DNA of 64,000 nucleotides from Sphingobium sp. YR768 (lineage in GTDB: Bacteria > Pseudomonadota > Alphaproteobacteria > Sphingomonadales > Sphingomonadaceae): NCBI RefSeq assembly GCF_900111125.1, contig NZ_FOGE01000020.1:1-64000 (forward strand). Reading direction: 5' to 3'. The position numbers were made by a program, and so were the translations under genes. Shown here piece by piece: positions 18,096 to 56,451 of the stretch. Positions within the stretch are counted from its first letter, which is position 1, and every line of letters starts with the position of its first letter. The notes beneath the pieces were generated by a model, which saw only the letters and a list, made by a program, of their open reading frames with translations, ran no database searches and had not been told where the DNA came from.

Positions 18096-18139
18096 GTGCA
18101 TCTCCTTGTTTATCGATTACCGGTGTACGGGTGCGGGCA

Positions 18140-18555: not shown

Positions 18556-18559
18556 CCCC

Positions 18560-36845: not shown

Positions 36846-38261
36846 TCATATTCTGACGAGCACCTTGGCCTCCTCGCCTCCGTTTGCCACACGACGTTGC
36901 GCCTCGATTGATCGTTGGCGCGACCTCAGGGCCATCCCGAAGACGTCTGCTTTGCGGACAAGCACGCGGGGATCTTCGCGTATGATCACGTCCTGTCGCT
37001 TCAGGTCGATAGTGATCGAGGAGACCGTCTCCGGAAATGGTTGACGCTTGTCTGTAAGGGGGAAGAGTGTGGTGCGACGATGCAATGGGTCTAGCCGAAC
37101 GATATGTTCTTGGCCGATCTCGCCCGAGAGGTACACCGCGCACCCCACGTAGCACCTGAGCAAACCCTCGAGGTCGACGACGCGCGCGCTGTCAATCACT
37201 AGGCGACCATCCTCGTCGATCGCCCCGAAGCCGTTATCAGCGGCGCGGCGCATGGCAGCGGCGGTCCGTTGTGCATCAGCAAGACCATGAAGGTATTCAA
37301 GTGCCTGCTCGGCGAACTGCTGTTGGCTGCCGAAGTGATGGCGGATGTCGCGCACCATGGCCGGGCTCGGACGGGAGGCCGAGCGTGAACGGTTGAGGAT
37401 GTTCAGGGCCTGGTGAACGAGCAGGTCCTCACGCCGCTCGGATGCGGCCCGTCCAAACAGCTCCTCATTGATGCTGGCATCTTGGCTGATCTCCAGCGCG
37501 CGCGCGAACGAAACGCGCTCGGTCGTAAGGAGATCATGTACATCGGACGGCATCTCGTCGGGATGGGGCAGCCGCCCGTGCTGAAGTGCGAATCTGGCGA
37601 TCGCATCGATCGCGTCCGCGATCCGATCGACCAGTTGCGGCTTGGCACTCGACACTCTTGCCGGACGGTCAGTCCGGTACGCGCTTGTGGATGCCCGGCG
37701 TCCGCGCCGTCGCTCGAGCAGGAAGTCCTGCTCGTCCTCGGGTGAGCGGAATAACGCAAAGATGCCTGGTGCAAGGGCGACGGGCTCGATACCTGTGGTC
37801 TGCGTCAGCATCGCCTTTAGTTCGGCCTGCTGGAAGTATTTCTGGAAGGTACCCCTGGCCGTCAGGTAGCCGTCGCCGAACTGACGGAGCCCGTCCACGG
37901 GCACGGCGCCGACGATCATCACGGAGACGACGAGCATGCGCGTCGCGAGCGCCCATGCCGCCTTGAGGGCGACCACCCTTTCCGCCGGATCCTCGATCAC
38001 ATTCAGGACGAAGCCGAGGTTGACGATCTGGGCTTCATTCCGCGACGCCTCCGGTGCGAAGTGCGGGTCCCAGCCCGCCGCCTCCACGCCTGCAGAGGCG
38101 AGTGCCCGCAGGTCGTCGCCTTGCCCGCAGCCGTAGTCGAACACCGTCATGCCTCGCCGCACAATCCCATGCCGCACGGCGAGAGACATCGGCTGCGACA
38201 GCGTATGCCGCACCATGGCTGTGCGATGCCGGGGGATCGGGATCGGCTTTTGGTCGATCAC
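36846..38261 (-). CDS. DNA phosphorothioation-associated methyltransferase, C-terminal part
   Basis: 471 residues from a GTG whose bases overlap the stop of the upstream gene (GTGA). The SAM-binding motif VFDYGCGQGDDL lies near residues 39-50, followed by AAGWDPHF and VNLGFVLNVIEDPAERV, which I recognise from the putative methyltransferase associated with phosphorothioation operons. In the proteins I know, an N-terminal GKR...Y.HRSAL domain is on the same chain. Here that part is the separate gene at 38258-38713. The substrate is not known; the context implies DNA. It is the last gene of the ssp operon. Confidence 0.72.
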   Translation of the reverse strand: MIDQKPIPIPRHRTAMVRHTLSQPMSLAVRHGIVRRGMTVFDYGCGQGDDLRALASAGVEAAGWDPHFAPEASRNEAQIVNLGFVLNVIEDPAERVVALKAAWALATRMLVVSVMIVGAVPVDGLRQFGDGYLTARGTFQKYFQQAELKAMLTQTTGIEPVALAPGIFALFRSPEDEQDFLLERRRGRRASTSAYRTDRPARVSSAKPQLVDRIADAIDAIARFALQHGRLPHPDEMPSDVHDLLTTERVSFARALEISQDASINEELFGRAASERREDLLVHQALNILNRSRSASRPSPAMVRDIRHHFGSQQQFAEQALEYLHGLADAQRTAAAMRRAADNGFGAIDEDGRLVIDSARVVDLEGLLRCYVGCAVYLSGEIGQEHIVRLDPLHRRTTLFPLTDKRQPFPETVSSITIDLKRQDVIIREDPRVLVRKADVFGMALRSRQRSIEAQRRVANGGEEAKVLVRI

Positions 38262-38713
38262 GTCGTCGCCTCGCCGGCTTCGTCGATCGCCAATTCCTTC
38301 AATCTCTGCCGCCACGCTTCGCGGGTACCGATCCGGTGTGAGTCGGCGAAGGCTCCGGCTCGCACCAGCTTGGTGGTTGCGCTGGTCCAAGTAGATCGGT
38401 GAGGATGATCAGCGCTGACCAGCAATTCCTTCCGATGCAGGATCGGCGGATTTGAGCGTTGCGCATAGTCGCGCCTGACGATGCGGCCGTCGTCGTGGAT
38501 GAGCGTCGAGGCGCGTAGCGCCGGAAACGGATCCTCATCGAAGTCGGCATAATAGAGAAGCGATACCCCGCTTCTCGCGACGCGGACCACGTTCCACACC
38601 GCGCCTGTCGCACGTGCTGCCATCTCAACGCGCGCCTGATCGGGGGCAGTCAAGGTTCCCAGCGCAGACCGGTGGAGATAGGTGGCGCCCCGGATCCGCT
38701 TTCCCGCCGTCAC
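38258..38713 (-). CDS. DNA phosphorothioation-associated methyltransferase, N-terminal part
   Basis: 151 residues starting MTAGKRIRGATYLHRSAL, with LLYYADFDEDPFPALRAS and NPPILHRKELLVS, then RIGTREAWRQRL. These are the N-terminal landmarks of the phosphorothioation-associated methyltransferase family. The chain stops at a TGA that overlaps the next GTG start, so the two parts could be made by coupled translation and work as a complex. It begins with a GTG three bases after the sspH stop, with AGGG seven bases before. A recent frameshift in a once single gene is the alternative reading. Confidence 0.65.
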   Translation of the reverse strand: MTAGKRIRGATYLHRSALGTLTAPDQARVEMAARATGAVWNVVRVARSGVSLLYYADFDEDPFPALRASTLIHDDGRIVRRDYAQRSNPPILHRKELLVSADHPHRSTWTSATTKLVRAGAFADSHRIGTREAWRQRLKELAIDEAGEATT

Positions 38714-38716
38714 CGT

Positions 38717-41700
38717 TCAGCCCTTGGCTATAGCCTGAGCGATTTGGGTGGCTTCCGCTGCGCTCAGATAAGGGGCCTGCGCGTAGATCATGCCACCAGG
38801 CTGGTTAGCCAGCTTGGCGATCATGTGGCCATGACCGAGCAGGCCCTCGGCACCTGGCTCGTCGAGAATGATCTGCGAGTTCAGTCTGTTCGAGACCTTG
38901 AGCGCAATCTTGTTGCCCATGTTCGCCTTGATGAGGCCGGGCAATGCGTCCTTGTCAGGGCGCTGAGTGATCAGGAACAGGTGGATTCCCGCGGCGCGCG
39001 CCTTCCCGCTCAGCCGCACCACGTAATCCGAAACGGCGTCGCGGTACTGGGTATCGGACTTGTCCGCCATCCAGTCGGCAAGTTCGTCATGGAAGAAGTA
39101 GATGCGCGGCAGCTTCTTCTGCTCGTCGACGGTCTCGTTGTAGGCGTCGATGTTGGGCAGCTTTGTCGGACCAAGGATCTCGGCATACCGCCGTTCCATC
39201 TCGTCCACGAGTTCCTTGAGCGCGATGATTGCATCGTCGGGCGTGGTGATGATCGGACCATCGAGGTGCGGAACCTGCTCGACCCAACCGTAGTCGATGC
39301 CCGCTTTCGGATCGACGAGACGGACGCGTGCCGCCGTCGGCGAATTGGTCGCACAGATGTCGAGGAGAAGGTTGGCCGTGAAGATGCCTTTACCGCCGCC
39401 TGTCTCTCCGGCGATCAGCGTGTGGGGGCCGTGCTGTGGCTGGCCTGCGAACGCCTCCCCAAGATTGAGATAGAGTATCTCGCCGGTATCTTCGCGCTCG
39501 CCGAGGACGAAGCTGGTGTTGCGATAGGGCGCGGACGCGGGAAGCTGGCGACGCTTCCAGAGGTCCAACGTTGGTAGGATCACGCGGCCATCGCGCGCGA
39601 CCATCACGACGACCTCTCCCTTGGCCGGCCTGATCGCCACGATCTCAAGTCCGTGCGAGGTAAGGAGGGTCGATCGGCGCTTTTGGACAAGCTCGGTCGT
39701 CATCTGGTCGTTACCGCGGAAGCGGATCAGGGCCGAATTGGGAGTCAGACGCGAGCCGGCCGTCTCGCAGGTCATGCCATAGCCTTTCAACGCCCCGCGC
39801 AGCTGCTTCTCGGTCGCCGCCAGCCAGTCTTGCCCGGCGACCTCGGCGATGGGGACGCCCCGTCCTGATACGATTTCAGCCACACCGGGGCGGAAGCCGC
39901 TGAGTTCATCGCCCGATGCCTGGCCTTCTGCATCCTCATCAGGTTCGCCCACGGCTGGCATATCGATGGCGGAAGCGAGGTCGACGATATCGAAGTTACT
40001 GCCTGCGGCTTCTGTCGACTGATAGTCGCCAGCTGGCTCGGCGTCAGAGTTGACGAACGGATCGGGATCGTTTGAATCCTCGGCGGCAATGCCACCGCCT
40101 TGATGCCCGTCTGTTGCGGATCCGGGGGCTGGCAGGGGTTTGGAGGGCTGTCCAGACCGCACATCCTCCAGCAGCTTGGCTATGTCGGGACGGGAGTGGA
40201 ATACCTGTCGGAAGCCTTCCTCGATGATAGGAGACGGCGCGGCGGCATCATCATCATGGACGTAGATGAGCGAGACGCCGTCCACGTCGATCCTCGCTGA
40301 TCCCGACCGGATGGCCTCAACCCAGCGTAGCAGATCCTCCTCGTTGTCGCGCTCGTCGAACGAGCCGTGCTCGACGAGCAGGTCCGCCAGCTGTGCGGCG
40401 TGGACGGGCGCATTCAACTTGTCCGTCGACTTGTATCGCTTGGTGATCCGGTCGACGGAGGTCTCGGTCTGCTGGCGCGACTTCGACTTGGCATCCGGCC
40501 GGCCCCCGACCTCAACGTATTTCGATTCGACTACCGACATGGTGACGACCGTCCCGTCGCCCTCGTCGCGCGCGCTGACCAGTAGTAGGTCGGCGACGGG
40601 ATCGCCGGCGGAGTGGCCGAGCCGGGTCTTGAAGTCGTCGAGGAAGAACCAGGCCAACGGTGCGGCGGCGGATGGAAGCGAAGACAGCACGAGCTGCTCG
40701 CTGAGGCTGAGGCCGATAAGTTCTAGCGCCGCTTGGTCGCGGTTCGCCGCACGAAGCACGATCTGACCCGAGAGATCAGCGGACCGGTCTATGAGCTTGC
40801 GAGCCAGCTTGGCCTCGTCGCTTGGCATGGCCGTAGTGACGTTGGACACCATGTCGGCGATGCGCATCGTCAGGGAGCGGCGGTGGGCTTTGGTGGATAC
40901 GACGAGGTTGTGCCGAGCCTCGTCAATGGGGATCGAGCGGATGACGCTAATGCCATTCTGCCTGAACAGACGGCGGTCCGCGATGCCGTCGAAGGTAACG
41001 ACCCAGTCCGCGATGTCGTGCGCGCGCCGGATGATCTCGGCGTTTTCCTCATTGTCGAAGGATATCTCGCGAAGCGGCTCCCAATGGTCGCGCAGCGTCG
41101 GGTCCTCGACCTCGGTCTTTAATACCTCCATCGCGAGATCGAGGTAGCGTTGAACCGCTATCGGGCGTGTCGGCGAAACGAGCAAGAGGCGGGTCCGGTT
41201 CTCACCGGCCTTCTGCACCATGCGTCGCGATGGTGATGCCCGGGTCGTTTGGTCGAAGTCGGGCCAGTCGCCCGTCGGCGTCACCGCTGGGCGCCACCGG
41301 CTGGTTGCGTTTCGCGCAAACACATCCTGAAGGAAAGCGACGTCCAGCGGCTTGTTGTCACTGTCCGACATCGCGAGCTTCTCGACGTCTCCTATTCCTA
41401 CCCGAAGGTTGGATAAGAACTCCTTGGTCAGGTCCGCGCCGCCGCTGGATTCCAGTTCGCGCCCGATGGCCACATTCTGCTCGGCATAGACCTGACGAAG
41501 ACGCCGGCGGTCATCGCTAGCGATCACGAGGTCGCACCGCAGCCGGGCATCTTCGTCGACCCTGCGCGCGAGCCGCTCCGCCACCGCAGACGGAAGGTCG
41601 CGGCTGTCGGAGTTGTATAGAACCACGGAAAAGTTGGCGACGTTGTGCGGATGAAGGTCGAGGTGCTCGGCGAGCACCTTCATCAGGTTGTCGGCGGCCT

Positions 41701-44134
41701 GGCGGGTGTAGGCCCCCTGTTCGTCACCCGACGAGGCCCGGTCCGCGACCGGCTCTGCGTAGGAATAGTCATCGAGCTGGCTGTTCTCGACCATCGCGAC
41801 CACCTTCCGATCCGCGGTCGTGCCGATGGCGTAATCGGTGAACCAGCTGCGCTGCAGGTCGTCCACCGCTCGAAGCATGAACGGCCGCAGTTGCGCGTCG
41901 TCCTCAGCCGCGCCCATCGCCAACAGTGTTTCCCGGGCCATTCGAGCACGGAGGCCGACCTCCGCCATGCGAAGCGGGAAGAAGGGCGTGACGATGATGC
42001 CCGGCACGTTCCTGGACGTAGCCGTGCCAATGCGCATGATCGGAAGCCAGAGTCCTCTCCGCGCGACATCGCCACGGGCGTTCTGGCGCAGCATCGCTAG
42101 TAGGTCGCCGTATAGCCGCCCCTGCTCGATCACGGCGTCGTCGGCTGCTCCGCTCCCAGTAAGGAACGCGTTTATGGCGGAACGATAGCTACCGCAGAAC
42201 GCCTCGAACGCGGCGAAGATCGTATCGCGTGCCCCCTTCTTGACGATGTTTCGTTCCGCTAGGCGGTCCAGCTCGGCGAGGAAGCCATTGCCCTCGTCGA
42301 GCTGCGGGATGTTGGGATCGAAGAGCTGACCATCCTCATTGTCGTGGATATCATCGATGGTCCGACGGTCTGAGAGGCGGAGCGAACGCGTTCCCGACGT
42401 GCTGTCTTTCGCGGTTCGGGAAAATAGACCCGACAGCAGCATGGCCGAGTTTTCACCTTGGGGTGCAACGGCATGCAGGTGGTCCGAGAAGTTCAGTCCG
42501 ATTCCTCGCGGGACGGGCGACCATACCATCTGCGTCTTGACCGCATGGCTCAGCTTGGCAGCATCAACCGCGCCTTCGGCGTCGAACGCCGTGGCGTCGA
42601 CGAGGAACGCCTCGAACTTGAAGTCGGTCTCGCTGCCTTGATGGCCGCTGTCGACATCGATCTCGTCGGCCCAGTCCCTGGACCAGCAGATCCCGCAGTC
42701 GACGCGGACAAACGCCGGCAGCAGTTCGGTTAGGCCCCGATGACGGTCGCGGAGCGTCAAACACGCTTCGAGGACGTGCCTGCGCCAGAAGTCCAACTCG
42801 TTGGCCTTGGACAGCTGGATGTAGATGATCTGGCCTTCGACATTGCCGTTGACGGCTGTGATCAGGTCGAAGGCGGCATGCACGATGCCCGCGAGCAGGT
42901 CCGAATGGTTTCTCACTTCCCGGAAGACGAACTGTTCCCACCGGCGGAGCAGCTTGCGGTCTTTCTCGATCCGCGCCCGGTGCCGTCCGAAGAGCTCGGC
43001 CTCGGCCGCGTCCGCCCCTCGGCTTTCCTCAAGCCTATCCAATACGTCTCGATCGACGTTCGTCAGCGTTCCCGCGCTTTCCTTGTCGAGATAGGCGGCG
43101 GTTGCCGCGCCCAACGGGGTCTCGCGTATTGACTTCCGCGCCTTCACCACCTTCTGGATGGATGGCCATCGCATCTTTGCGAAGTCCTGCTGGCTCGTAT
43201 TCCATTCACCCGGTTCGATGTCAGCGTCGTCGAGCAAGGTTTGCCATGTCGCGAAGTCGTCGTCGTCGAGCTCTCCCTCGGCATGGAGGAGCTGGACGCG
43301 GCCGCGGATCAACTCACGGTCGAGCGGCCGTCCCTGGTCATCGCGCAGGTATGCCACGTCGGAGACACGGTTGTAGAGGTCCGTCAGTTGAGTCGCCCAG
43401 GACTCGGGCGAGGTGATCCGGCCCCTGTCACCGGGCGGAGGAAAGTTCGCCGCTTCGGGCGGAATGCGGAATACGGTGAGGGCTTGATTGAGCGCCTTGT
43501 GGACAGTCTGCTTACCTATGCCATCGTCGAGATCGCTCATAAAGCGGGCGAACAGCGGCATATTTGTCGGGATGTCAGTGCGCAGCAGACCAGTGATCGC
43601 GTTGCGTACGTAGGTCGCCTGGCGAGGCGACAGCTCTCCGAAGTGCTTAGTCGCGCCGAACCACGCCTCGATGTCCGCCTTGAGGTGGTCGGGCGAGAGG
43701 CGGTGTATCGTCGCCGCGGTCTCGCCGAGCCTGTTAAGCGCGTCGGTCGTCACCGCCGACACGATAGCGCGGTCAGCATCCTCTCGCGCCACGTTACGCC
43801 AGTGGGTCAGCGGCTCGCTCGAAAGCCATTCGGCCGGGACTGGCCCGGCTTTCACGTCTGGGTGCACGGCAATCCTTGCGGCCGGCTCCTCCGCATGGAT
43901 GTCCTCAAGGATACGGCGGGTCTGGGGTCCGTCGAAGTCGAACACCGCGAACAGGGCGGGCTCGTCCAGGCTTGCGTCGAGTGCCCTCCGCAACCGACGA
44001 ACGGCGACGGCTGACACCAACTTACTGATCTTGCCGTCATCTTCGGTCGGTGCGGAGACGGGGGTCAAGTCTGCGACCATGTGGACCGCCGAAGCAGCCA
44101 TGGATCCGTGTTCTGGGATGATCTGGGTGTTCAT
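38717..44134 (-). CDS. sspH: SspH/DptH-like large HerA/FtsK-type ATPase
   Basis: 1805 residues. Most of the protein has no recognisable motif. The C-terminal quarter is a translocase ATPase with LIAGETGGGKGIFTAN (about residue 1575), RIYFFHDELADWM (about 1683, Walker B) and LFLITQRPDKDALPG. It corresponds to DptH of the Dnd restriction module and SspH of SspFGH. It would translocate along or unwind DNA as part of the complex that damages unmodified DNA. The Walker A lysine is followed by glycine instead of serine or threonine. The start ATG is 9 bases after the sspG stop. Confidence 0.82.
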   Translation of the reverse strand: MNTQIIPEHGSMAASAVHMVADLTPVSAPTEDDGKISKLVSAVAVRRLRRALDASLDEPALFAVFDFDGPQTRRILEDIHAEEPAARIAVHPDVKAGPVPAEWLSSEPLTHWRNVAREDADRAIVSAVTTDALNRLGETAATIHRLSPDHLKADIEAWFGATKHFGELSPRQATYVRNAITGLLRTDIPTNMPLFARFMSDLDDGIGKQTVHKALNQALTVFRIPPEAANFPPPGDRGRITSPESWATQLTDLYNRVSDVAYLRDDQGRPLDRELIRGRVQLLHAEGELDDDDFATWQTLLDDADIEPGEWNTSQQDFAKMRWPSIQKVVKARKSIRETPLGAATAAYLDKESAGTLTNVDRDVLDRLEESRGADAAEAELFGRHRARIEKDRKLLRRWEQFVFREVRNHSDLLAGIVHAAFDLITAVNGNVEGQIIYIQLSKANELDFWRRHVLEACLTLRDRHRGLTELLPAFVRVDCGICWSRDWADEIDVDSGHQGSETDFKFEAFLVDATAFDAEGAVDAAKLSHAVKTQMVWSPVPRGIGLNFSDHLHAVAPQGENSAMLLSGLFSRTAKDSTSGTRSLRLSDRRTIDDIHDNEDGQLFDPNIPQLDEGNGFLAELDRLAERNIVKKGARDTIFAAFEAFCGSYRSAINAFLTGSGAADDAVIEQGRLYGDLLAMLRQNARGDVARRGLWLPIMRIGTATSRNVPGIIVTPFFPLRMAEVGLRARMARETLLAMGAAEDDAQLRPFMLRAVDDLQRSWFTDYAIGTTADRKVVAMVENSQLDDYSYAEPVADRASSGDEQGAYTRQAADNLMKVLAEHLDLHPHNVANFSVVLYNSDSRDLPSAVAERLARRVDEDARLRCDLVIASDDRRRLRQVYAEQNVAIGRELESSGGADLTKEFLSNLRVGIGDVEKLAMSDSDNKPLDVAFLQDVFARNATSRWRPAVTPTGDWPDFDQTTRASPSRRMVQKAGENRTRLLLVSPTRPIAVQRYLDLAMEVLKTEVEDPTLRDHWEPLREISFDNEENAEIIRRAHDIADWVVTFDGIADRRLFRQNGISVIRSIPIDEARHNLVVSTKAHRRSLTMRIADMVSNVTTAMPSDEAKLARKLIDRSADLSGQIVLRAANRDQAALELIGLSLSEQLVLSSLPSAAAPLAWFFLDDFKTRLGHSAGDPVADLLLVSARDEGDGTVVTMSVVESKYVEVGGRPDAKSKSRQQTETSVDRITKRYKSTDKLNAPVHAAQLADLLVEHGSFDERDNEEDLLRWVEAIRSGSARIDVDGVSLIYVHDDDAAAPSPIIEEGFRQVFHSRPDIAKLLEDVRSGQPSKPLPAPGSATDGHQGGGIAAEDSNDPDPFVNSDAEPAGDYQSTEAAGSNFDIVDLASAIDMPAVGEPDEDAEGQASGDELSGFRPGVAEIVSGRGVPIAEVAGQDWLAATEKQLRGALKGYGMTCETAGSRLTPNSALIRFRGNDQMTTELVQKRRSTLLTSHGLEIVAIRPAKGEVVVMVARDGRVILPTLDLWKRRQLPASAPYRNTSFVLGEREDTGEILYLNLGEAFAGQPQHGPHTLIAGETGGGKGIFTANLLLDICATNSPTAARVRLVDPKAGIDYGWVEQVPHLDGPIITTPDDAIIALKELVDEMERRYAEILGPTKLPNIDAYNETVDEQKKLPRIYFFHDELADWMADKSDTQYRDAVSDYVVRLSGKARAAGIHLFLITQRPDKDALPGLIKANMGNKIALKVSNRLNSQIILDEPGAEGLLGHGHMIAKLANQPGGMIYAQAPYLSAAEATQIAQAIAKG

Positions 44135-44143
44135 GTGATCGCG

Positions 44144-45694
44144 TCAGCAATAGGGATTGCGCACGAACGCGCAGTCATCGGACAGGCGCTCGACGAAGCC
44201 GAGCATGCGGAGCCGTTCCTCGAAGATTCGCTGGTTCGACCGTAGCTGCTCGAATGGGGCGTCTTCCCCGAGCCTACGCTGGCCGACCAATGGCCCGACG
44301 ACGAAGGAGTACCGAGCCCAGAGCCGTTCGAGGTGCTGCTCGAGTTCGACTGGGGCGGTGACATTGGCGAGGACGATCGCCTCGAGGAAACCGTTGCTGG
44401 CCGCATACCACCGGCCTTGACCTGGCCTTGCGACGCCCAGCCCGATCCGATCGGTCTGGGTGGCGAGCATGAGGCCAAGATGGTTTGCGTGTTTCGTCAG
44501 CGCCTCGCCCCGCATCTCCTCGATCATAGCGGCTGCGTTGATCGTCTTCGGCGCGACCGTGTGGGAGAATGCCTCCTTCAGCATCTTCTTCCGCATCGCC
44601 ACCGGATCACCAGCCTCGTCTGCATCTTTCCATTCTTGGCTTTCCGCAAACTGATCGATCACCTTGGAGATTGCCAACCGCGACATTTCCCGGTGAAGTT
44701 GGAACCGCTCACGCGAGACGCGACGAAGACCCGCGGCGCTGTCGGTCGCCATGTCGAGCGGAATCGGTTGCTCCGTTCGGCGGCCGAGGACTTCCGCCGA
44801 GCGTTCGATGAGGTAGCGGACGACGTGGAGACCCGTGAGCCGCATTAGCGGTTCGGCCAATTGGTCGTCGGGCAGCTGTTCGAGCGACAATAACGCGATC
44901 CAGTCCTCGGCCAAGCGATCGTAAGTCGGATGGCTCGGCAACGGCAGATATCCGATCTTGTACTGCACGGGATCGGGGTCGTGTGAGCTCGGCGGCTGGA
45001 GAAGGCGGGCGACCTTATTCCACCGGCTGCCGGCCGTGAGAAGCCGCTTCCTTACTAGTTGCTCCAGCTGCGCAGAGTGCTTGCTTCGGTTGAGCATGAG
45101 AAAAACTAGCTCGCCACCGCGCGCAAAGAATTTGCGGTCGTTGTTGATCTTGTCCCCAGCCTTCAGCCCATAGTCGGCCATCAGCATATCCACGCCACCC
45201 GGCACAAGATGCCGCGACGTGGGGCGGCGGTCGCGTTCGGGTTCGACCACGGCGGCGCGGAGCAGGTCCACAGCGTCGTGGAATGATGAGAAGCGCTCGA
45301 ACCGCTCGCGGAGGTGAGCAATCTCCTTGGGATTGCGGCCATTGAGCCACTTTTCCCACTTCGCGTCTTCCGAAAGGTCGTCACCGCCCCGTGCGATGGC
45401 GTCCAAGGCATGATCCTGGAAAAGGACTTGGCGGAGGTGACGCCGAGTCGGTACCTGGTAGACGAATTCTTCGTGCGCGCCATCGTTGGCGGCGAAGATC
45501 GTTTCTACGTTTTTGTCCGCCGCGCGCGCCGACATGATCGCCATTGCCTCGAGTAGCAGCAGCCAGCTGGTTTGATCGTTGATGAGCCGGTGCCCCCAGA
45601 TCATCTGCTCGACGTTCACTTTCCACGAGTCCGGCTGCGCCGTTTCGGGAACGTCGAAGGCCCCATCGACCTTGAAGCGTTTCGCCTGGTTCAT
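44144..45694 (-). CDS. sspG: SspG/DptG-like restriction component
   Basis: 516 residues beginning MNQAKRFKVDGAFDVPETAQ. It has no obvious enzymatic motif. A central helical part contains LERRTEQPI-like and HREMSRLAISKVIDQF segments. The call rests on position between a DptF-like and a DptH-like gene and on size. The ATG at 45694 overlaps the TGA of sspF (ATGA), which fixes the start; the frame is open for 50 codons upstream but those overlap sspF. Its biochemical role within the FGH complex cannot be read from sequence. Confidence 0.75.
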   Translation of the reverse strand: MNQAKRFKVDGAFDVPETAQPDSWKVNVEQMIWGHRLINDQTSWLLLLEAMAIMSARAADKNVETIFAANDGAHEEFVYQVPTRRHLRQVLFQDHALDAIARGGDDLSEDAKWEKWLNGRNPKEIAHLRERFERFSSFHDAVDLLRAAVVEPERDRRPTSRHLVPGGVDMLMADYGLKAGDKINNDRKFFARGGELVFLMLNRSKHSAQLEQLVRKRLLTAGSRWNKVARLLQPPSSHDPDPVQYKIGYLPLPSHPTYDRLAEDWIALLSLEQLPDDQLAEPLMRLTGLHVVRYLIERSAEVLGRRTEQPIPLDMATDSAAGLRRVSRERFQLHREMSRLAISKVIDQFAESQEWKDADEAGDPVAMRKKMLKEAFSHTVAPKTINAAAMIEEMRGEALTKHANHLGLMLATQTDRIGLGVARPGQGRWYAASNGFLEAIVLANVTAPVELEQHLERLWARYSFVVGPLVGQRRLGEDAPFEQLRSNQRIFEERLRMLGFVERLSDDCAFVRNPYC

Positions 45695-47493
45695 GCGACA
45701 CCCAAGGGCAGAGCGGTCATCGCCAGCTTTCCGCTCTGAGGCAGGCGGACCAGGGTGACCTCGTGCGGATCGGACGGGATGAGGCCCGCGGCACCCAGCT
45801 TGGCAACGGAGCGCAGGCGGAACTGGCGCAGCTCCTCGAAACACTGCCGCGAGAAACTTGACGGAAGGCTTCCGTCCTTAATGCGGATCAGATATTCGAA
45901 GAGCAGCGGGGTGAGGTCGATGGAGTTAATCACTTCGTCGTCGCTGGAGAGTGTCAGCCGTGGACGTCCATTGAGACCGTTCGCGTCGAAATCCACGCTG
46001 AGGCGCTCCTGCGCAGACCTGCCGAGCCGGATGGGTGCGGCAGTGTCAAGGACGCGCCCCTGACGACTCTGGGTATTACCCGCAGGTCCGGTCAACCAGA
46101 GCTTATCGTCGTCGTCGGTCATCAGGCCCGTGTAGACGCGGTTGAGACCGATGATCAGATGGCGCTTGGCCTTCGTTGCGTCCGAACCTTCACCGAGATT
46201 TGCCGCGAAGCGTAGGTAGTCGCCGCCGCCTGTGAAAATGGTCAGCAGCCAGGGGTCAAGTCGTCCCTTCTCCTCCGGGAGAGTGAAAAATAGACGTCTG
46301 CGCTGATCAGCGAGCGCGTCGTGCAGCGCCGGCATGTCAACATCGGTTGGTGCCGCGCGATACTGCGCCCTTGCCTTCGCCAGTAATGGGTCGCCGAACT
46401 GAGCGTCCGCAGCCATGAACTTCTCGAATGCGTTGGCCGGCTCGCGCTCCAGCATCATCTCGTCGAAGGCGTTCAGCGTCTCTCGGCCGAGACCGAAGCT
46501 GTCGAAGACGGTAAAGGCGCGAAACTGACGGCGTTCCGTCGGCTCGAAATTGAGGCCCGACACGTTGCGATATGGGTTTACCCGCGCCGCCGCGTCGTCC
46601 TTCTGCGCGATGACGTGAGCGTCAACACACCTGATGAGGCCGCCACCTTTACCGTCACCGAGAAGGATATTCGAGCAGAGGAGAAGCAACTGGCGCACGG
46701 GCAGGTGTGTACCATTGAGTGCAGCTATTCGGATCAGTTGCGACAGTCTGAGCCGCAAGGAAGGATCTCCAGAACCCGCAAGAATTGCAAGGTTGCGGCG
46801 GATCGGGCACGTTCCGGCCACCAAGAGCGTGCACCCATCGCAGCGGTTCCAGTCTGGGTGGTCGACAATAGCGTCGACCACCTCGCCGAACAGTGCGTCG
46901 TGAGGCTGCCGGCTCAGATTGTAGAGCCGTAGCGAGAGATCGGCCGAATCCTCGCTCTCCTCGACGAGCATCTTGCGGATTGCCTCGTCGATTGCCGGGC
47001 CGGCAGGGTGCCGGTGAGCGAACTGGCGGACGAATGCGACGAGTTGGCCATCGTTCGACGCTACGATCAGTGGAATGGCGCTGTCGCCGTTGGTCACTGA
47101 CGCGGCGAAGGCGTCGTAAACCTCCGCCTTTTCGTCGTCGGTCAACTCCGCAAGATCCTTCACGACCTTGACCGTTCCTGTCCCTGGCACTTCGACGTCG
47201 AGCACCTTCTCGGTCGCCCAAGCGGTCATGTCCGCCCCCGCATCCTCAAGCGCACGGCGGCAGGTGTAGGTCTTGCCGTCGCCAGCGGTGCCGGTGAGCA
47301 CGACGCTCGGCCTGTCCGATGCGGCCCACGCCTTCTCTAAAGCGTCCTTCTTGGCCGCCGTGACATGCAGGGGCTGCACGTTCTTACGCTTCGCGGTGCT
47401 CTGCACATGCTCGTCGAACTGAGCGTTCGAAGACGGTAGCGGACCATAGGACCGAAGGAAGTCCACAAGCGGGTTCTGCTTCAGCTCCGGCAT
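45691..47493 (-). CDS. sspF: SspF/DptF-like P-loop protein
   Basis: 600 residues. N-terminal Walker A is VVLTGTAGDGKTYTCRRAL (about residues 64-82). A cysteine cluster NRCDGCTLLVAGTCPIRRNL, possibly metal-binding, lies near residue 220. This is the layout of DptF, the nucleotide-binding member of phosphorothioation-dependent restriction. The ATG overlaps the sspD stop by one base (TGATG). In-frame GTGs occur slightly upstream, but coupling favours the ATG. Confidence 0.8.
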   Translation of the reverse strand: MPELKQNPLVDFLRSYGPLPSSNAQFDEHVQSTAKRKNVQPLHVTAAKKDALEKAWAASDRPSVVLTGTAGDGKTYTCRRALEDAGADMTAWATEKVLDVEVPGTGTVKVVKDLAELTDDEKAEVYDAFAASVTNGDSAIPLIVASNDGQLVAFVRQFAHRHPAGPAIDEAIRKMLVEESEDSADLSLRLYNLSRQPHDALFGEVVDAIVDHPDWNRCDGCTLLVAGTCPIRRNLAILAGSGDPSLRLRLSQLIRIAALNGTHLPVRQLLLLCSNILLGDGKGGGLIRCVDAHVIAQKDDAAARVNPYRNVSGLNFEPTERRQFRAFTVFDSFGLGRETLNAFDEMMLEREPANAFEKFMAADAQFGDPLLAKARAQYRAAPTDVDMPALHDALADQRRRLFFTLPEEKGRLDPWLLTIFTGGGDYLRFAANLGEGSDATKAKRHLIIGLNRVYTGLMTDDDDKLWLTGPAGNTQSRQGRVLDTAAPIRLGRSAQERLSVDFDANGLNGRPRLTLSSDDEVINSIDLTPLLFEYLIRIKDGSLPSSFSRQCFEELRQFRLRSVAKLGAAGLIPSDPHEVTLVRLPQSGKLAMTALPLGVA

Positions 47494-48317
47494 CACAGGT
47501 GGCACACGGCGCAGCCGTCCTCCGCCTTTGCCGACACCGCCCGTCTCGGCATCCGCTCCACGTCGTCGAGCGAGCGGCCATCGACCCAGGTATACTTCCG
47601 CCCCTTCTTCATCGTCTCGTATGCCTTCGCCTTCTCATACAGCTCGGGATGGCGTTCCTTGAGGCCCTGCCACTCGCCGATTTGCTGGTAGAAGCAGAAG
47701 TAGCAGCCCGACCGACTCCGCCATTCGTAGTATTCCGGCAGGCCGAGCCCGGCGCTGTCGAGGATTCGGCCGACCTCGGCAAGGTCGATCGCATCGTCCC
47801 GGTAGGGATACACGGGTGTGATGTTGGGCTTTTCCGATATCACAACCGGCTTGGCGCCAGCCGTGCCTGTCCCGAGGTAACCAGCGCGGTTCTCGTCAGC
47901 ACGCAGGCCGATGTAAGAATAGGCGCGATCGCCGCCGATGAACCGCTCGAATGGGGCGATCTTCATGATCCGCGTGCACCACCTCGCGCGCGGGCTGGGT
48001 AGAAATCCTGCGAAGTGCTCGAACAGCGCGACGTCGAACGCCGTGCGGCCCGGCTTCTCCGCCACGTCGAACATCTCCATCGCCGAGACGCGGTGGATTT
48101 TCACCCCGATGATGTTCTCAAGCCTGTCCAGGTAGTCGATCGTCTCGGGCAGCTCGACGCCGGTGTCGGAGAACACGTACTCGAAGTTCACTTCGGGATT
48201 GCGCTGCTTCAGGTAGACGGCCAGAGCGGACGAGTCCTTGCCCCCGGACACGGGCACAATGTGCCGTGCCTCGGTATCTCTCACCGCGTCGTCGACGTTG
48301 GTGGACAGCAAGCTCAT
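47493..48317 (-). CDS. sspD: SspD/DndC-like PAPS-reductase-fold PP-loop protein
   Basis: 274 residues. The ATP pyrophosphatase loop is IVPVSGGKDSSALAVYL (SGGKDS at 24-29), followed by YVFSDTGVELPET. Cysteines occur in RARWCTRIMKI, RSGCYFCFYQQ and the C-terminal DGCAVCHL, enough for an iron-sulfur cluster. It would adenylate the DNA backbone phosphate before sulfur insertion. At this length it fits SspD rather than the longer DndC. It overlaps sspC by four bases (ATGA), with GGGGGA before its ATG. Confidence 0.88.
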   Translation of the reverse strand: MSLLSTNVDDAVRDTEARHIVPVSGGKDSSALAVYLKQRNPEVNFEYVFSDTGVELPETIDYLDRLENIIGVKIHRVSAMEMFDVAEKPGRTAFDVALFEHFAGFLPSPRARWCTRIMKIAPFERFIGGDRAYSYIGLRADENRAGYLGTGTAGAKPVVISEKPNITPVYPYRDDAIDLAEVGRILDSAGLGLPEYYEWRSRSGCYFCFYQQIGEWQGLKERHPELYEKAKAYETMKKGRKYTWVDGRSLDDVERMPRRAVSAKAEDGCAVCHL

Positions 48318-51300
48318 CTTTTTCCCCCAGCGACCTGAAGGCCGCGGATTCGACTGTCCTCCGTTTCGTCGATTTTAACAAGCATTCTGGTGAGTTCCTC
48401 GACGCGGGCTTGAACGATCGGCCTCAGCGCCGCCGTCGGTGACTCGGTGTCGAGCGCCGCCGCCTCAATGCGTTCGCGGGCATCGCGGAGCGCGGACCTG
48501 AACTGCGCTGCTGTGCGGTCGTCCCACTTGTCGAGACTACGCTGGAGCAGTATCGAACTAAGCGTGTTGGCGAGCGACTTCGGCGAGAAGCGGCCATTCA
48601 CCGTCTCGACGGCCTTCCGTAGCACCGCGCGGTCAACGATGCGCAGGTCGTCGCGCCTGTCGAGCGATGCAGCGTCGAAGCATCCCGCCCATGCGGTGAC
48701 CGCCTCCAGCGGGTCGACGTCAAGGTCGGCGGAGCGAAAGCTCTCCGCGATCACCTCGACCGCATCCTGAGCGAACTGGTCGCGAAGATGGTCGATCTCC
48801 TTGCGCGCCGATTCCAGCTTCGCGATCAGGCTCGGGGAAGGACCCTTGGCGCCGAGCGCTAAAGGCAAATCTTTGAGAAGGAGTTGCACCGGGTCAGAGG
48901 AACCGCCTGCCGTCCGCAACAGTCCCTTCGCATGAGTCCCCAGCTTCTGCGAGCGTCTCGAGCCGTCCGGAACGGTGAGCAGCCAGCGTGTAAGCGCATC
49001 ATGCGCGAACCGGACGAGTTCATCACTCGTCGTCGGCCGCTCGTGCGAAAAGACGTAGGCGGCCTCGGACAAGTATTCGACCAGATCGGGTGTGGGGTCG
49101 AGGACCTGCACGCAGAACCCCTCCGGGTTCGTCACCATGTTATCGAACTGAAAGCCGAGCGTGTCAGCGACGTATCGACCGTTGTCGTAGAGCGCCATTG
49201 CGCGCGAGAAGTGCTTGAACCCCGCAGCGATAAGCAGCGGCATGACCGCCAACGGGACGCCCATCGGCGCCGAAGCAAGGGTCGAGACGAACGCGCTCAG
49301 GTCGCGGTATGCGCCACCGCTGCGGCCGGTCGGTGTGCGGAAGAAGTCGGCAATGCGGAGCCAGACTTCCTTGAAACCGGGGTCGGTGATCTGATCGGGG
49401 TCGGCGAACCGCGTCGATCCTTTGGGGCGAAGCCCCGTGTTCTCGATCACTGTTCGGTAGATTGACCCTTCCGCGCCGCGATCACCTTCCTCGTACCCCA
49501 ACCGCTCGCGACCGGAGCGTTCGAGAATGGATCCGACGACGCGGACGCGCGCAGTCTGCATCGTGCGCGACGCAGTGTTGCGCATCAGCTGATCGTTTGC
49601 GATCTTGGGAGTCTTGTCGAACCATTGACTCAGGAGGCGCGATGCCGCCATGGGGCCTGGCCGCTCGGGCGACACGTCCAGACGCTCGCCTTGGGAATAC
49701 CATGTCGCACCAGTGGCGCGCGGGTCCAGCACCCCCCGGAGGAGGGTCGCCAACTCCTCGAACGCGACCGACTGGAGTTCGTCTATCTCGGTCGTCACCA
49801 TCGGATCCGAAGCCACGAATTCTTTGTCGGCGCGGAGCGCTTCAATCGATATTAGCTCGATCGCTGCACTTTCAGCAGCGAGTGGCCTGTCGGGAATCGC
49901 GATGATCGCGTGAACGCTGGATTTCTTCGCCAGTTTTCGGGCTGCGGCGATGTCGCCCTTGCTCTCCGCAAGTACGTAGACGATCGCGCCAGAGGCAGGG
50001 TCGCCGTCTTCGAGCAGCTCGGCCAGTTCGATGACGGATGCGTAGCGTCCCATCAGAAAGCGGTTCACGCCGAATTCGGCGTTGTGCCGTGGAGCGCGGA
50101 TATGCGGCGCGGGGAAACGGTCTTCCAGAAATGCCCGGAGATCGAATGCGCTCGAGCGCCGCTCGCGTTCCTCGCGCACGCGGATCGCGACGTCGATATC
50201 GGCGCCGTGCCAAACCGCAACGTCGTCGGTGTGCTTGCGCCAGAGCAACAGCTTGGCTTCTAGCAGTTCATCGACCGCGGCAGCGATTTCCTTGGCGGGA
50301 AGTTCCGTCTCGGCAACAGCCAGCTCGAGAACGTTACGAGGCAGGCGCCGTCGTTCGCCGCTCGTCCCAAGCTGCAGCAGGCATGCGGCTGCGAGCAGCA
50401 TTCGCTGGAGCGGGGTGTCGGCCCTTGAACGCGCGCTCTCAGTCTCGATCCAGCGCCGATATATGCCACCAATCCCCACGTCGGTCCGCATAGCGTCCGA
50501 AAATGAGGTGTAGACCACCTCGATATCGACCTTACGGGTCAGGTCAATCTCGCGCAGGAAAGAGAATAGGCTGCGCTCGTTCTGTCCGACCCGGGCGACC
50601 AGCGTCGGCAGGATTTGCAACGCTCCCGCTGTCAGCGGCCTGACATCGTCCAAGATCCCAAGCGCTTGACCACCGTCCTCGATGCCATCGAGCCACTTCC
50701 ACTTGACGACCTCGTCTGCGAGGGCCTGATCAACGCGGGGCATGATTACGACACTCTCCGGAGGACGCATCTCCGAGACCACATCCGCGATCAGGCGGTA
50801 GAACTCCTGGCTATCCTCGATCATCCGAAGCGGCCGGAATCGCCCTTCAATCTTGCGCCATTCGCTCCGTGACGTATCATTCAGACGTGTCGCGTAGGCG
50901 AGCAGGTTCTGGTGGAGGAGCAGTGTGAGGCTCATCGTCGGCCCGGACGCGCGCGCCACCCGCTCGGCGAGACGCTGGACGACGTCCAGTTCGCTCGACC
51001 GTCCGTCGGCCACCAGCCCTTCGAGATGTCGCCCAAACTCGTCCCAGATGATCGCGACGTGATCCCAACCACCGTCGCGCATGGCCTTGCCGAAGCCCTC
51101 GACGCTCTTCGGTGGCCGGGTCATTCCAAGCGCTTCAGCGATCGCGGCGATGGGGTCGTCGATCATTCCCGAAAGGATGACGACGTGTCCCTGAAGCGGC
51201 GCCGAGGCGCGGCTGCGTAGCGCCCCGCTGACTGCGGGGTCAACTTGGTCCGTGCGCTCCAGAACGGCCATGAGCGCGCGGCGATCGTCGGCCGAGTTGC

Positions 51301-51499
51301 GGACCGCCAACGCTCCGACACCCGCCGCTAAACTCTTCCCGCTGCCATAAGGCGCGATGACCATAGTCGTGGACGCGGGTTCGACGATCGCCGTGATGAT
51401 CGGAAGTGCGCGGCGCGTCGGACGATAATGTCCGAACCGATCCGGGTACTCCAGATCCTCGACTAGACTGAGTGAGCGGAAAAAATCGGCGCCGATCAT
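48314..51499 (-). CDS. sspC: SspC-like large P-loop ATPase
   Basis: 1061 residues from the ATG at 51499, which overlaps the sspB stop (ATGA). Walker A is MVIAPYGSGKSLAAG (APYGSGKS at 49-56) and Walker B is VAIIWDEFGRHL (about 149-160). The rest is helical, with winged-helix-like stretches around 400 (RRLPRNVLELAVAETELP). In SspABCD systems the SspC ATPase works with SspB and SspD to insert sulfur into one DNA strand. The call rests on the motifs, the size and the fixed gene order. Confidence 0.82.
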   Translation of the reverse strand: MIGADFFRSLSLVEDLEYPDRFGHYRPTRRALPIITAIVEPASTTMVIAPYGSGKSLAAGVGALAVRNSADDRRALMAVLERTDQVDPAVSGALRSRASAPLQGHVVILSGMIDDPIAAIAEALGMTRPPKSVEGFGKAMRDGGWDHVAIIWDEFGRHLEGLVADGRSSELDVVQRLAERVARASGPTMSLTLLLHQNLLAYATRLNDTSRSEWRKIEGRFRPLRMIEDSQEFYRLIADVVSEMRPPESVVIMPRVDQALADEVVKWKWLDGIEDGGQALGILDDVRPLTAGALQILPTLVARVGQNERSLFSFLREIDLTRKVDIEVVYTSFSDAMRTDVGIGGIYRRWIETESARSRADTPLQRMLLAAACLLQLGTSGERRRLPRNVLELAVAETELPAKEIAAAVDELLEAKLLLWRKHTDDVAVWHGADIDVAIRVREERERRSSAFDLRAFLEDRFPAPHIRAPRHNAEFGVNRFLMGRYASVIELAELLEDGDPASGAIVYVLAESKGDIAAARKLAKKSSVHAIIAIPDRPLAAESAAIELISIEALRADKEFVASDPMVTTEIDELQSVAFEELATLLRGVLDPRATGATWYSQGERLDVSPERPGPMAASRLLSQWFDKTPKIANDQLMRNTASRTMQTARVRVVGSILERSGRERLGYEEGDRGAEGSIYRTVIENTGLRPKGSTRFADPDQITDPGFKEVWLRIADFFRTPTGRSGGAYRDLSAFVSTLASAPMGVPLAVMPLLIAAGFKHFSRAMALYDNGRYVADTLGFQFDNMVTNPEGFCVQVLDPTPDLVEYLSEAAYVFSHERPTTSDELVRFAHDALTRWLLTVPDGSRRSQKLGTHAKGLLRTAGGSSDPVQLLLKDLPLALGAKGPSPSLIAKLESARKEIDHLRDQFAQDAVEVIAESFRSADLDVDPLEAVTAWAGCFDAASLDRRDDLRIVDRAVLRKAVETVNGRFSPKSLANTLSSILLQRSLDKWDDRTAAQFRSALRDARERIEAAALDTESPTAALRPIVQARVEELTRMLVKIDETEDSRIRGLQVAGGKR

Positions 51500-52395
51500 G
51501 CTGTCGCGCCAATCCGGAGATAGTAGTCGCGCAGCCACTGCTCGACCGGCCTGATCGTAGTCCGCAGATACCGCTCACCGGCCAGGGTCTCGACGCTGAC
51601 ACCCTTCATCCACATGACACTGGATGCCTTTCCGACCATCTCGTCGATGGCGTCGAGTCCGGCGCAGAAGACGCGGCCCGGTCCAAAGCGGAGCGTCGCA
51701 AGTTCCCTCAGGGAAAGGGCATCCTTGCCGGTCTCCTCAGCAAGTAGCGACGAGCACGCGAGGAAGGCCTCGTTCGGCAGGCCGATTGGTGCCCGCGTGC
51801 GCTCGAACCGTCGCACGAGTTCATGACGCACCACGAGGCCGAGTTCGCGGAACGGACATGCACCGACGTCGTCGGGATCGACGACATCAACCCCCGGCCG
51901 CGCGGCATAAGCGCTTAGCAGGCAGGCCACGTCCTTGAGTGCCATTGCCTCGCTTGCCGGACGCATTGCCTTCGCGCGGGTGAACTGGAGGAATGACTCC
52001 ACGCAGGTAGCACGATCGAAAATGCGGTCGGAATAGTCGTTGAAAAACCAGGACCAAACGGTGCCCTCGTGCGTCGCAAGTACGAGATGGAGAAACCACC
52101 ACGTGCCTGGCAGTTCACAATACGGATCATGGGTGATGACGAGGTCCGCGATCTCGGACGGCACACGCCCGGTCCTGGCTTCGCCCTCTGCATCCCGTGC
52201 GAGACCGGTGGCCTTGAGCCAGAAACTCAGCGACTCGACCATCTTCGAACCGAGGCCTAAATCGTCGCCGACGTTGGTGCTCGGATGGAAAGCTCCATCC
52301 CGCCTCATGCGCGACAGGCCCTTGGGCAGCCAACCGTATCGCACCGGGAAGGTGACGTGGCCGCCGTAGGAGAAGCGCATCAAGCTCGTGCCCAT
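51496..52395 (-). CDS. sspB: SspB-like DUF4007 protein (nickase)
   Basis: 299 residues. The N-terminus MRFSYGGHVTFPVRYGWLPK and the segment HDPYCELPGTWWFLHLVLA are hallmarks of DUF4007, the family of SspB, which nicks DNA for strand-specific phosphorothioation. An AGGAG seven bases before the ATG at 52395 supports that start; the ATG at 52380, which overlaps the sspA stop, is the alternative and would begin exactly at the conserved MRFSYGG. Its 3' end overlaps sspC. Confidence 0.88.
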   Translation of the reverse strand: MGTSLMRFSYGGHVTFPVRYGWLPKGLSRMRRDGAFHPSTNVGDDLGLGSKMVESLSFWLKATGLARDAEGEARTGRVPSEIADLVITHDPYCELPGTWWFLHLVLATHEGTVWSWFFNDYSDRIFDRATCVESFLQFTRAKAMRPASEAMALKDVACLLSAYAARPGVDVVDPDDVGACPFRELGLVVRHELVRRFERTRAPIGLPNEAFLACSSLLAEETGKDALSLRELATLRFGPGRVFCAGLDAIDEMVGKASSVMWMKGVSVETLAGERYLRTTIRPVEQWLRDYYLRIGATA

Positions 52396-53594
52396 GCGAC
52401 GCTCCTCAGATGTCCAACCGAATTGGCGATGATTGACACTGCCTCGTCGATTTCGGCTTCGGAGCTCAGCACGGAGAGCGAGAACCGGATGGTCTCAAAC
52501 GCTTCGATTTCAGCCAGACCCATTGCGATCAGTACGTGTGACGGCTCTGGCCGGCGGCTGGCACAAGCCGATCCCTGAGATGCCGCGACACCGCGACTGT
52601 CCAGCTGGGCGATCATGGACATACCATCGACGCCAGGAAACCTCACGCTGGAGATGTTGGGTAGGCGTTCCTTGGCGCTAAAGAGACTTGCGTCGGGGAT
52701 GGCAACGCGCAGTCCGGCTTCCAGCCGGTCGCGTAGCGCCTTCATGCGCTCAACTAATTTGCTCATCGCCTTGGCACGCCGATCGCACGCCGCGCCGAAG
52801 CCAGCGATCAAAGGTACCGCCTCGGTGCCCGCTCTGAGTGCGCTTTCCTGATCACCGCCGACGAGTAGGGGAGCTAGCAATATGCCCCTTTCTGCCGCCA
52901 CAATTGCTCCCACGCCCATCGGCGCGTGCAGCTTGTGCCCGGAGACCGTGATCACGTCTGGACCAAGGCCAGGCGACAGATCGATGGGCAGCTTACCAAA
53001 GGCCTGCGCCGCGTCGGAGTGGAACGTCGTCATCGGACGTGTCGCCAGCATCGCCGCGATTTCTGCGATCGGCTGGATCACGCCAGTCTCACTGTTCGCG
53101 AACTGGATCGAGACGAGAAGCGGACCCTGTGCCGACCCGATCAGGGATTCCAGCCGGTGGAGATCCACTATTCCCGCCCCGTCGACGGGGACGAAGTGAA
53201 CTATCGCGCCGGTCAACTTGGCCCGTTCGGCCGAGCGGATAACCGAAGGATGTTCTACCGTGCTGGTGATGATGGTTGCTGCTTCGATGCCCGCAAAGAC
53301 GGTGTTATTCGCCTCGGTGCACCCTGATGTGAACGTCACGCCCTCCTCTGCCGCACCAGTGACCAGCGACAGCAAACTGTCGCGCGCGCGGGCAAGGATC
53401 GCGCGCGCGCGGTCTCCGAGCTCGTGGGCGCTCGCCGGATTGGCGGCACCTCCACGGAGTGCGGCAACGACGGCTTCGATCACTTCTTCGGTGGGTGTGG
53501 TGTTTGCGGCGGCATCCAGGTTGATCACCGCGGAAGACGCCTGATGTGAGTAGGGACAGTTATCAATTTTGGTGTTCAACACAACTTCTACCAC
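52380..53594 (-). CDS. sspA: SspA-like cysteine desulfurase
   Basis: About 404 residues on the longest frame. The PLP-binding lysine is in TVSGHKLHAPMGVGA (about residue 220). The catalytic cysteine loop is ASQGSACASRRPEPSHVLIA (cysteine about 343). It removes sulfur from cysteine and would hand it to SspD/SspC, the same job as IscS or DndA. The start is uncertain: GTG at 53594 or 53582, TTG at 53579, or GTG at 53525 where INLDAAANTTP similarity begins. It is the first gene of the ssp operon and is divergent from the plus-strand gene at 53973. Confidence 0.88.
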   Translation of the reverse strand: MVEVVLNTKIDNCPYSHQASSAVINLDAAANTTPTEEVIEAVVAALRGGAANPASAHELGDRARAILARARDSLLSLVTGAAEEGVTFTSGCTEANNTVFAGIEAATIITSTVEHPSVIRSAERAKLTGAIVHFVPVDGAGIVDLHRLESLIGSAQGPLLVSIQFANSETGVIQPIAEIAAMLATRPMTTFHSDAAQAFGKLPIDLSPGLGPDVITVSGHKLHAPMGVGAIVAAERGILLAPLLVGGDQESALRAGTEAVPLIAGFGAACDRRAKAMSKLVERMKALRDRLEAGLRVAIPDASLFSAKERLPNISSVRFPGVDGMSMIAQLDSRGVAASQGSACASRRPEPSHVLIAMGLAEIEAFETIRFSLSVLSSEAEIDEAVSIIANSVGHLRSVAWARA

Positions 53595-53972
53595 CCCTCG
53601 CGCGCTTAAAAGCTTATAGGATCGCGCTCACGCGCCGCCAACGACCCATCCGAACCACTTGTCGCTGCGCGCAACGCACGTGCGCCTGACGCGGAACATA
53701 TAAAGAATTAGCATTTTTCCGCAATCGCGAAGGAGGTCTCGAACGTGATGAAGGGGGCACAAGGCGTCCGTCTATCGCTCGCTGCTTGACGCCAATGGCG
53801 GTAGCGGGGCGGACCAAGATTTTCGCACATTTAGGCGGTCGTCACCAGTTGCTGTTCCGGCGACCTTCGCGCCGCGATCCATCGACCACAGCAATACTGG
53901 TTTAACTGCGGAACGGAGTCGCGTAACCAAGTCGACAAGCCGATCGCGAGTCGGTGCGGGGGATAACTGACG
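53595..53972. other. Divergent intergenic region ahead of the ssp operon
   Basis: About 380 bases with no credible gene on either strand. It contains the candidate ssp promoter near the left end and must also hold the promoter of the rightward gene pair at 53973. An A/T-richer patch lies around 53,690-53,720. No clear operator palindrome was recognised. Confidence 0.5.
53613..53641 (-). promoter_or_regulatory. Candidate sigma-70 promoter of the ssp operon
   Basis: On the minus strand TTGGCG (53641-53636) is followed after exactly 17 bases by TATAAG (53618-53613). Spacing and match are good for a housekeeping promoter. The leader to the first possible GTG would be very short, which favours a start at 53582 or later for sspA. 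GAGGGG within 53599-53594 could serve as ribosome binding site for GTG at 53582. Confidence 0.5.
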
Positions 53973-56335: not shown

Positions 56336-56451
56336 GCAATGCAAGAAGTGTTGAGAAAGCGTGCGGGGCAGCAGTTTTCTCAGGTAAGCAGCGCATAGTC
56401 GAGGTTGTCACGAGACATGATGATGAACCGGTAGCACGGGAGGGGCTACGC

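Follow-up and report, generated by a model that had tools for sequence, protein, structure and literature searches.

An SspABCD-SspFGH phosphorothioation cassette with a split methyltransferase and two histories in Sphingobium sp. YR768

To which part of a DNA phosphorothioation (PT) and restriction operon does a methyltransferase gene at its end belong, and how does it come to be encoded in two pieces? These questions are raised by a locus of Sphingobium sp. YR768, located in a stretch of 64,000 nt that was analysed as a whole and is called the window here (positions 1 to 64,000 of contig NZ_FOGE01000020.1, assembly GCF_900111125.1). Seven ssp genes occupy 38717-53594 on the minus strand of the window and are followed by a TIGR04096 methyltransferase gene at 36846-38261, with a small gene in between that encodes the N-terminal domain of this methyltransferase family as a separate protein. 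Comparison with related cassettes gave one history for sspABCD, which the methyltransferase follows less cleanly, and a second for sspFGH, to which the small gene can be assigned with modest support. The point where the two histories meet falls inside what is one gene in other cassettes. The system itself is known in kind; what is new is that the methyltransferase is split, that the two modules differ in history and that a pairing between them can be proposed. The genes in question are the following, in order of transcription.

52380..53594, minus strand: sspA, cysteine desulfurase, 404 aa (PADLOC SspA, 7.7e-100; Aminotran_5)
51496..52395, minus strand: sspB, DUF4007 protein, 299 aa (PF13182; PADLOC SspB, 3.6e-60; PDB 6juf)
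48314..51499, minus strand: sspC, large P-loop ATPase, 1061 aa (PADLOC SspC, 6.4e-118; Walker A)
47493..48317, minus strand: sspD, 3′-phosphoadenosine-5′-phosphosulfate (PAPS)-reductase-like sulfurtransferase, 274 aa (PADLOC SspD, 2.9e-90)
45691..47493, minus strand: sspF, Walker-A protein, 600 aa (PADLOC SspF, 1.2e-159; GTAGDGKT)
44144..45694, minus strand: sspG, 516 aa (PADLOC SspG, 3.4e-141), starting at the ATG that overlaps the sspF stop
38717..44134, minus strand: sspH, 1805 aa (PADLOC SspH, E=0, 1385 bits; FtsK_SpoIIIE, 9.6e-26)
38258..38713, minus strand: small gene, 151 aa, GTG start (matches TIGR04096 positions 305-466)
36846..38261, minus strand: methyltransferase, 471 aa, GTG start (TIGR04096, 336 bits, cut-off 150)

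The core of this gene run is almost certainly an SspABCD-SspFGH system. Profile matches span most of each of the seven Ssp proteins, the best stretches being residues 152-1026 of 1074 in SspC and residues 18-260 of 274 in SspD. A preliminary description of this DNA, made from the letters alone, had taken the DUF4007 gene for sspB and the short PP-loop gene for sspD, both of which were confirmed by Pfam and PADLOC; SspB reaches 157 bits against DUF4007 (PF13182, cut-off 27) and matches the PDB SspB structure 6juf at 1e-14. SspC also matches BrxC, but more weakly (8e-48). The catalytic cysteine loop GSACAS and the pyridoxal phosphate lysine in SGHKLH are present in SspA, and SspD carries an SGGKD PP-loop together with CYFC and CAVC, while SspH ends in an FtsK/SpoIIIE-like ATPase and, around residue 1200, contains a candidate PD-(D/E)xK nuclease motif. 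The same description had noted overlaps or very short gaps at every junction of the seven genes, which is what was found: sspA and sspB overlap by 16 nt, or by only 1 nt (TGATG) when sspB starts at its second ATG at 52380, the other overlaps with preferred starts are ATGA (B/C), ATGA (C/D), TGATG (D/F) and ATGA (F/G), and sspG and sspH are separated by 9 nt. The preferred start of sspC is the ATG overlapping the sspB stop. For sspA, the open frame starts at 53594, not at 53641, where the operon had been said to start. No internal stop was found in the ten minus-strand genes checked with their preferred starts.

Ten other complete cassettes share the order A-B-C-D-F-G-H-methyltransferase, and the layout is therefore not a matter of chance. 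These cassettes were drawn from loci or records that hold the methyltransferase and ssp genes together, so the frequency of the layout is not derivable from them. The split form was compared in Tianweitania populi, Sphingobium C100, Sphingomonas BT553, Sphingomonas gentR and genome G426, and the fused form in Methylobacterium indicum, Microvirga ossetica (which has an additional 210-aa gene between sspH and the methyltransferase), Azospirillum TSA2s, Falsirhodobacter algicola and Rhizobium leguminosarum TP16; a Croceicoccus cassette (L024), cut by its contig end, was omitted from the matrices described below. The seven-gene operon proposed earlier is supported by profiles, by gene order and by motifs that are intact in the window and in the ten others: the active-site cysteine and lysine of SspA, the SGGKD loop and C-terminal cysteines of SspD and the Walker A motifs of SspC, SspF and SspH are kept in 11/11 cassettes. 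Near residue 1200 of SspH, an aspartate with E[SA]K after it is likewise found in 11/11, a PD-(D/E)xK-like pattern that probably marks a nuclease site. An excerpt of PMC8092258 reports for SspH nothing beyond FtsK-like similarity, and an excerpt of PMC10853773 describes a restriction endonuclease domain in DndH. Taken together, the SspABCD-SspFGH set is real and apparently intact. It was also correctly seen before that sspA lies inside the operon and that a methyltransferase is added; however, this is not special to the present element, since the other cassettes share the layout.

The apparent gap of about 330 nt after sspH, left empty in the preliminary description, is filled by the small gene, whose start lies 3 nt past the sspH stop and whose end shares 4 nt (GTGA) with the beginning of the methyltransferase gene. 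A TIGR04096 profile search of the whole genome gave two matches in the same contig, the second directly past sspH. The small protein is predicted by AlphaFold2 with a predicted local distance difference test score (pLDDT) of 92, has 35 homologues besides itself in a protein search of 188 candidates, and shows an invariant LHRKE core in a 51-row alignment. The same domain forms the N-terminus of a single protein in the loci L026, L027, L029 and L030, and the fused form is also found on plasmids of Azospirillum (a protein of 680 aa, N-terminal domain included), Microvirga and others. In addition, the fused proteins carry a second, C-terminal copy of this domain (hhalign probability 100, E 8.4e-40, compared with less than 1% for three other domain pairs), which is without the HRKE signature. 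In 6 of the 7 split cassettes, the small gene continues the reading frame of sspH, starting no more than two codons past the sspH stop.

The two histories are apparent from correlations between identity matrices of the 11 cassettes, in which sspA-D and the methyltransferase form one block (rho 0.63-0.75) and sspF-H another. The methyltransferase correlates with sspC (rho 0.67, 1 of 2000 permutations as high) and hardly with sspH (rho 0.12, 510 of 2000), while the small gene shows a weak correlation with F-H (0.22-0.39) and none with A-D or the methyltransferase. Among the six split cassettes, the small gene follows sspG closely (rho 0.80, 3 of 2000 permutations). The sspABCD tree pairs the window with Tianweitania (support 100/100), and a clade of the window with Sphingomonas BT553 is rejected by the approximately unbiased (AU) test (p 4e-8), whereas in the sspFGH tree BT553 is the partner of the window (100/100) and a clade with Tianweitania is rejected (p 9e-64). 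The methyltransferase tree again joins the window to Tianweitania (95/96; BT553 rejected, p 1.4e-5), and the small-gene tree joins it to BT553 (89/87; Tianweitania rejected, p 7e-4). In blocks of 60 residues, the window and Tianweitania are 88-98% identical in sspD but 27-46% in sspF; at the second border, the small gene has 33-44% identity and the methyltransferase 68-92%.

The methyltransferase belongs to a family defined in NCBIfam (TIGR04096) as a DNA phosphorothioation-associated putative methyltransferase. It has the S-adenosylmethionine motif DYGCGQGDD, and a homologue adopts a class I fold. The family is widespread, with more than 3000 homologues among 8000 scored candidates. Among 72,556 plasmid records, SspG was matched in 33 and the methyltransferase in 37, and the two lie within 13 kb of each other in 8; in 6 of these 8, the methyltransferase is downstream of sspG on the same strand, the exceptions being Methylibium PM1 and Pseudanabaena ABRG5-3. 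SspD (at least 12) or DndC (at least 7) lies within 16 kb in at least 19 of the 37 methyltransferase records, and in at least 17 of the 24 with coverage of at least 80%, these counts being lower bounds taken from the best 60 of 77 SspD and the best 60 of 69 DndC matches. Individual relatives are located beside sspABCD without sspFGH (Rhodobacteraceae SC52), directly before dndBCDE (Pseudoalteromonas) and near a desulfurase and a DUF4007 gene (Synechocystis). A shortened copy is present in Sphingomonas naphthae, where none of the surrounding genes is annotated as ssp. TIGR04096 exceeds its cut-off in 3/385 genomes of a class sample, in which SspG (PDLC02799) occurs in 1/385, the window's own genome; in an order sample, the methyltransferase was found at E <= 1e-30 in 4/396 genomes, including the own genome. 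SspFGH operons that end in the conserved methyltransferase are mostly from Alphaproteobacteria. Searches of open-licence papers found neither a published function for the TIGR04096 methyltransferase nor an account of it inside an SspFGH operon; for SspF/G/H proteins of this kind, they gave PMC8092258, along with an article on sporulation.

Taken as a whole, PT restriction-modification with a two-subunit methyltransferase is the explanation that we moderately favour. The roles of the Ssp proteins are taken from homology and published work. SspA would draw sulfur from cysteine, SspD would activate the sulfur and pass it on, and SspB (by DNA binding and nicking) would choose the site with the ATPase SspC, leaving PT on one DNA strand. 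Damage to DNA without PT would be done by SspF, SspG and SspH, with the PD-(D/E)xK site in SspH, driven by the FtsK-like motor, as the likely nuclease. SspABCD-SspFGH systems are characterised by single-stranded PT at 5′-CCA-3′ and by toxicity of SspFGH once the mark is missing. The methyltransferase may add a second mark or adjust the self-signal in another way, with DNA at or near PT sites as its probable target. It can be placed with some confidence on the modification side, because Ssp or Dnd modification genes lie next to its relatives and its tree agrees for the most part with that of sspABCD, while DNA as its substrate is a plausible assignment at best evenly balanced. The small gene encodes the N-terminal domain of the methyltransferase, now as a separate subunit that would be co-transferred with SspFGH, and this subunit could match the writer to the resident SspFGH restriction complex, a link which we propose tentatively. 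Exchanged modification and restriction parts whose border falls inside a split gene would offer a natural handle on the matching of writer and reader in PT systems. The cassette may also inform why PT systems tolerate sparse, uneven marking, and it makes the role of the widespread TIGR04096 family, which accompanies both Ssp and Dnd, directly testable.

Several points weigh against this explanation. With all 11 cassettes, the correlation of the small gene is low with sspH (rho 0.26, 71 of 2000 permutations as high) and with sspG (rho 0.22, 147 of 2000), and among the six split cassettes the methyltransferase shows a rho of only 0.03 with sspC (867 of 2000). The support in the small-gene tree (89/87) is modest, and co-transfer of the small gene with SspFGH can be mere neighbourhood. 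The methyltransferase tree places Sphingobium C100 with the window and Tianweitania (96/96), whereas the sspABCD tree pairs it with Sphingomonas gentR (100/100), and the clades for the AU test were named after the identities had been seen. The methyltransferases of all 11 cassettes lack [DNS]PP[YFWH], the pattern of motif IV in DNA amino-methyltransferases, and the top fold matches of the catalytic domain act on tRNA, peptides or small molecules. On plasmids, 25 of the 33 SspG records have no methyltransferase match within 13 kb, and SspFGH therefore does not need the methyltransferase. Finally, gene content, order, motifs, the split and the tree conflicts were observed, whereas the biochemical roles of the methyltransferase pair are all inferred.

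The alternative that survives best, and which we regard as a serious if somewhat less probable contender, is that the mosaic is positional only: homologous recombination through two well-conserved stretches, sspD and the methyltransferase gene at its 5′ end, would swap the interior of the cassette, and the small gene would move with SspFGH as a neighbour, with no functional pairing. Indeed, sspD is unusually conserved (85-95% identity among the sphingomonad cassettes), the identity steps lie at the sspD/sspF and small gene/methyltransferase borders, and the modest support in the small-gene tree fits this alternative as well. However, the second border lies exactly where a gene that other cassettes have in fused form is split, and the small gene is read directly past sspH in six of seven split cassettes. 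It is rather unlikely that the methyltransferase pair works on the restriction side or on protein or RNA instead of DNA, for example as a regulator methylating an SspFGH component or tRNA. The fold similarities, the missing motif IV noted above and the junction of the small gene with sspH would agree with this reading; it is opposed by relatives beside sspBCD without sspFGH or beside dndBCDE and by a methyltransferase tree that goes mainly with sspABCD. Less probable still is a passenger, a defence or epigenetic gene in its own right that is found in PT islands by coincidence: 18 of the 37 plasmid records have no SspD or DndC nearby among the matches listed (several are partial or decayed), and the flanks of L026, L029 and L030 gave no ssp match, but the genes at the operon end overlap or nearly touch in split cassettes, and the family is repeatedly associated with two unrelated PT writers.

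A bolder variant, which we consider improbable, casts the methyltransferase as a second writer acting on the sulfur mark, where it would S-methylate PT or methylate a base only beside PT; the combined mark would then be common to Ssp and Dnd, and the small subunit would tell the writer which SspFGH to satisfy. The catalytic domain is without motif IV, and its fold matches include the bacillithiol methyltransferase NmbA and the thiol methyltransferase XrdM; however, many unrelated class I enzymes match the fold as well as or better than these two. That the restriction module is DndFGH (Dpt) rather than SspFGH, as the like architecture of a Walker-A protein, a middle protein and an FtsK-like translocase (PMC8092258, in excerpt) might suggest, is scarcely credible on profile scores: the proteins labelled DptF-, DptG- and DptH-like in the preliminary description match the PADLOC SspF, SspG and SspH models strongly, and no Dnd/Dpt F/G/H model matched any of the three at E <= 0.001.

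The pairing of SspABCD with SspFGH had already been described, as the preliminary description stated, in Vibrio anguillarum FF-93 (PMC8092258, cited from excerpts throughout). Both systems have SspB, SspC, SspD and SspF-SspG-SspH, with a Walker A in SspF and an FtsK-like C-terminus in SspH. In FF-93, however, sspFGH is a three-gene cassette adjoining sspBCD and IscS served as the desulfurase in tests, whereas in the window sspA opens a single gene run that the split methyltransferase closes. In E. coli, SspFGH is reported to be sufficient when combined with SspBCD plus a desulfurase, and the Results and Discussion of that paper mention no such methyltransferase gene. Many TIGR04096 relatives have the N-terminal domain in the same protein, unlike the separate gene of the window. 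Dnd (DndBCDE with DndFGH) shares the PT chemistry, but the window has the DUF4007 protein SspB and SspC in place of DndD/DndE and restriction proteins that match SspFGH models. Type 4 bacteriophage exclusion (BREX) shares a BrxC-like ATPase, a PAPS reductase and DUF4007 with the window system (PMC12839542, in excerpt); in contrast to that type, neither PglZ nor BrxL was matched when 18 proteins of the window were scanned with PADLOC.

The carrier of the cassette is likely a conjugative element, because relaxase, coupling-protein and trb genes flank the cassette: RlxS, TraG, TrbB, TrbE and TrbL are above curated cut-offs in the window, with genes on both sides. The ends of this element were not found. 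The earlier assignment to an integrative and conjugative element holds as far as these genes and an RlxS beside the G426 cassette are concerned, but no att-type repeat was found. A tyrosine integrase (16588-17856) adjoins tRNA-Cys (16422-16495), and exact 15-mers of 16381-16640, the tRNA-Cys region, are not repeated elsewhere in the 89.6-kb contig. The G426 cassette lies between RlxS and a relative of an ORC/CDC6-like ATPase of the window; none of the eight queries matched in the other flanks compared.

Several neighbouring genes were also observed. Divergently upstream of sspA, on the plus strand at 53973-57544, lie genes for a 241-aa protein, the ORC/CDC6-like ATPase (PF24389, 46 bits) and a 360-aa protein; the first and third gave no matches. 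The relative of the ATPase near the G426 cassette is 79% identical, and in genome G075 a relative of the 360-aa gene adjoins a TIGR04096 methyltransferase. At the other end, 85 nt past the methyltransferase, a fused nucleotidyltransferase-HEPN protein of 306 aa is encoded at 35840-36760 on the minus strand. Locus L018 (G124:C82, 2246-13272) holds a split small gene and methyltransferase near cysteine desulfurase, GmrSD-like and DUF6339 genes; SspB, SspC, SspD, SspF, SspG and SspH of the window found no match there, and the locus is perhaps another PT-like cluster. Near the integrase of the window lies a short CagX-like conjugation-gene fragment (18110-18589, minus strand), and a serine recombinase followed by two RepB/ParB-like genes occupies a stretch of lower G+C content (20094-23437, plus strand); a similarly annotated recombinase/ParB/RepB trio adjoins a TIGR04096 methyltransferase on the Methylibium plasmid RPME01. 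A second trb-type element was observed in contig C38 of the same genome (46000-65500; locus L064:3817-18999), with TraG and TrbB 69% and 58% identical to those of the window. Beside its traG are sspA-B-C-D, then PbeA-like (PADLOC 8e-185) and PbeC-like (1.5e-44) genes and an open reading frame of 148 aa, so that two conjugative elements in one genome bear SspABCD with different effectors.

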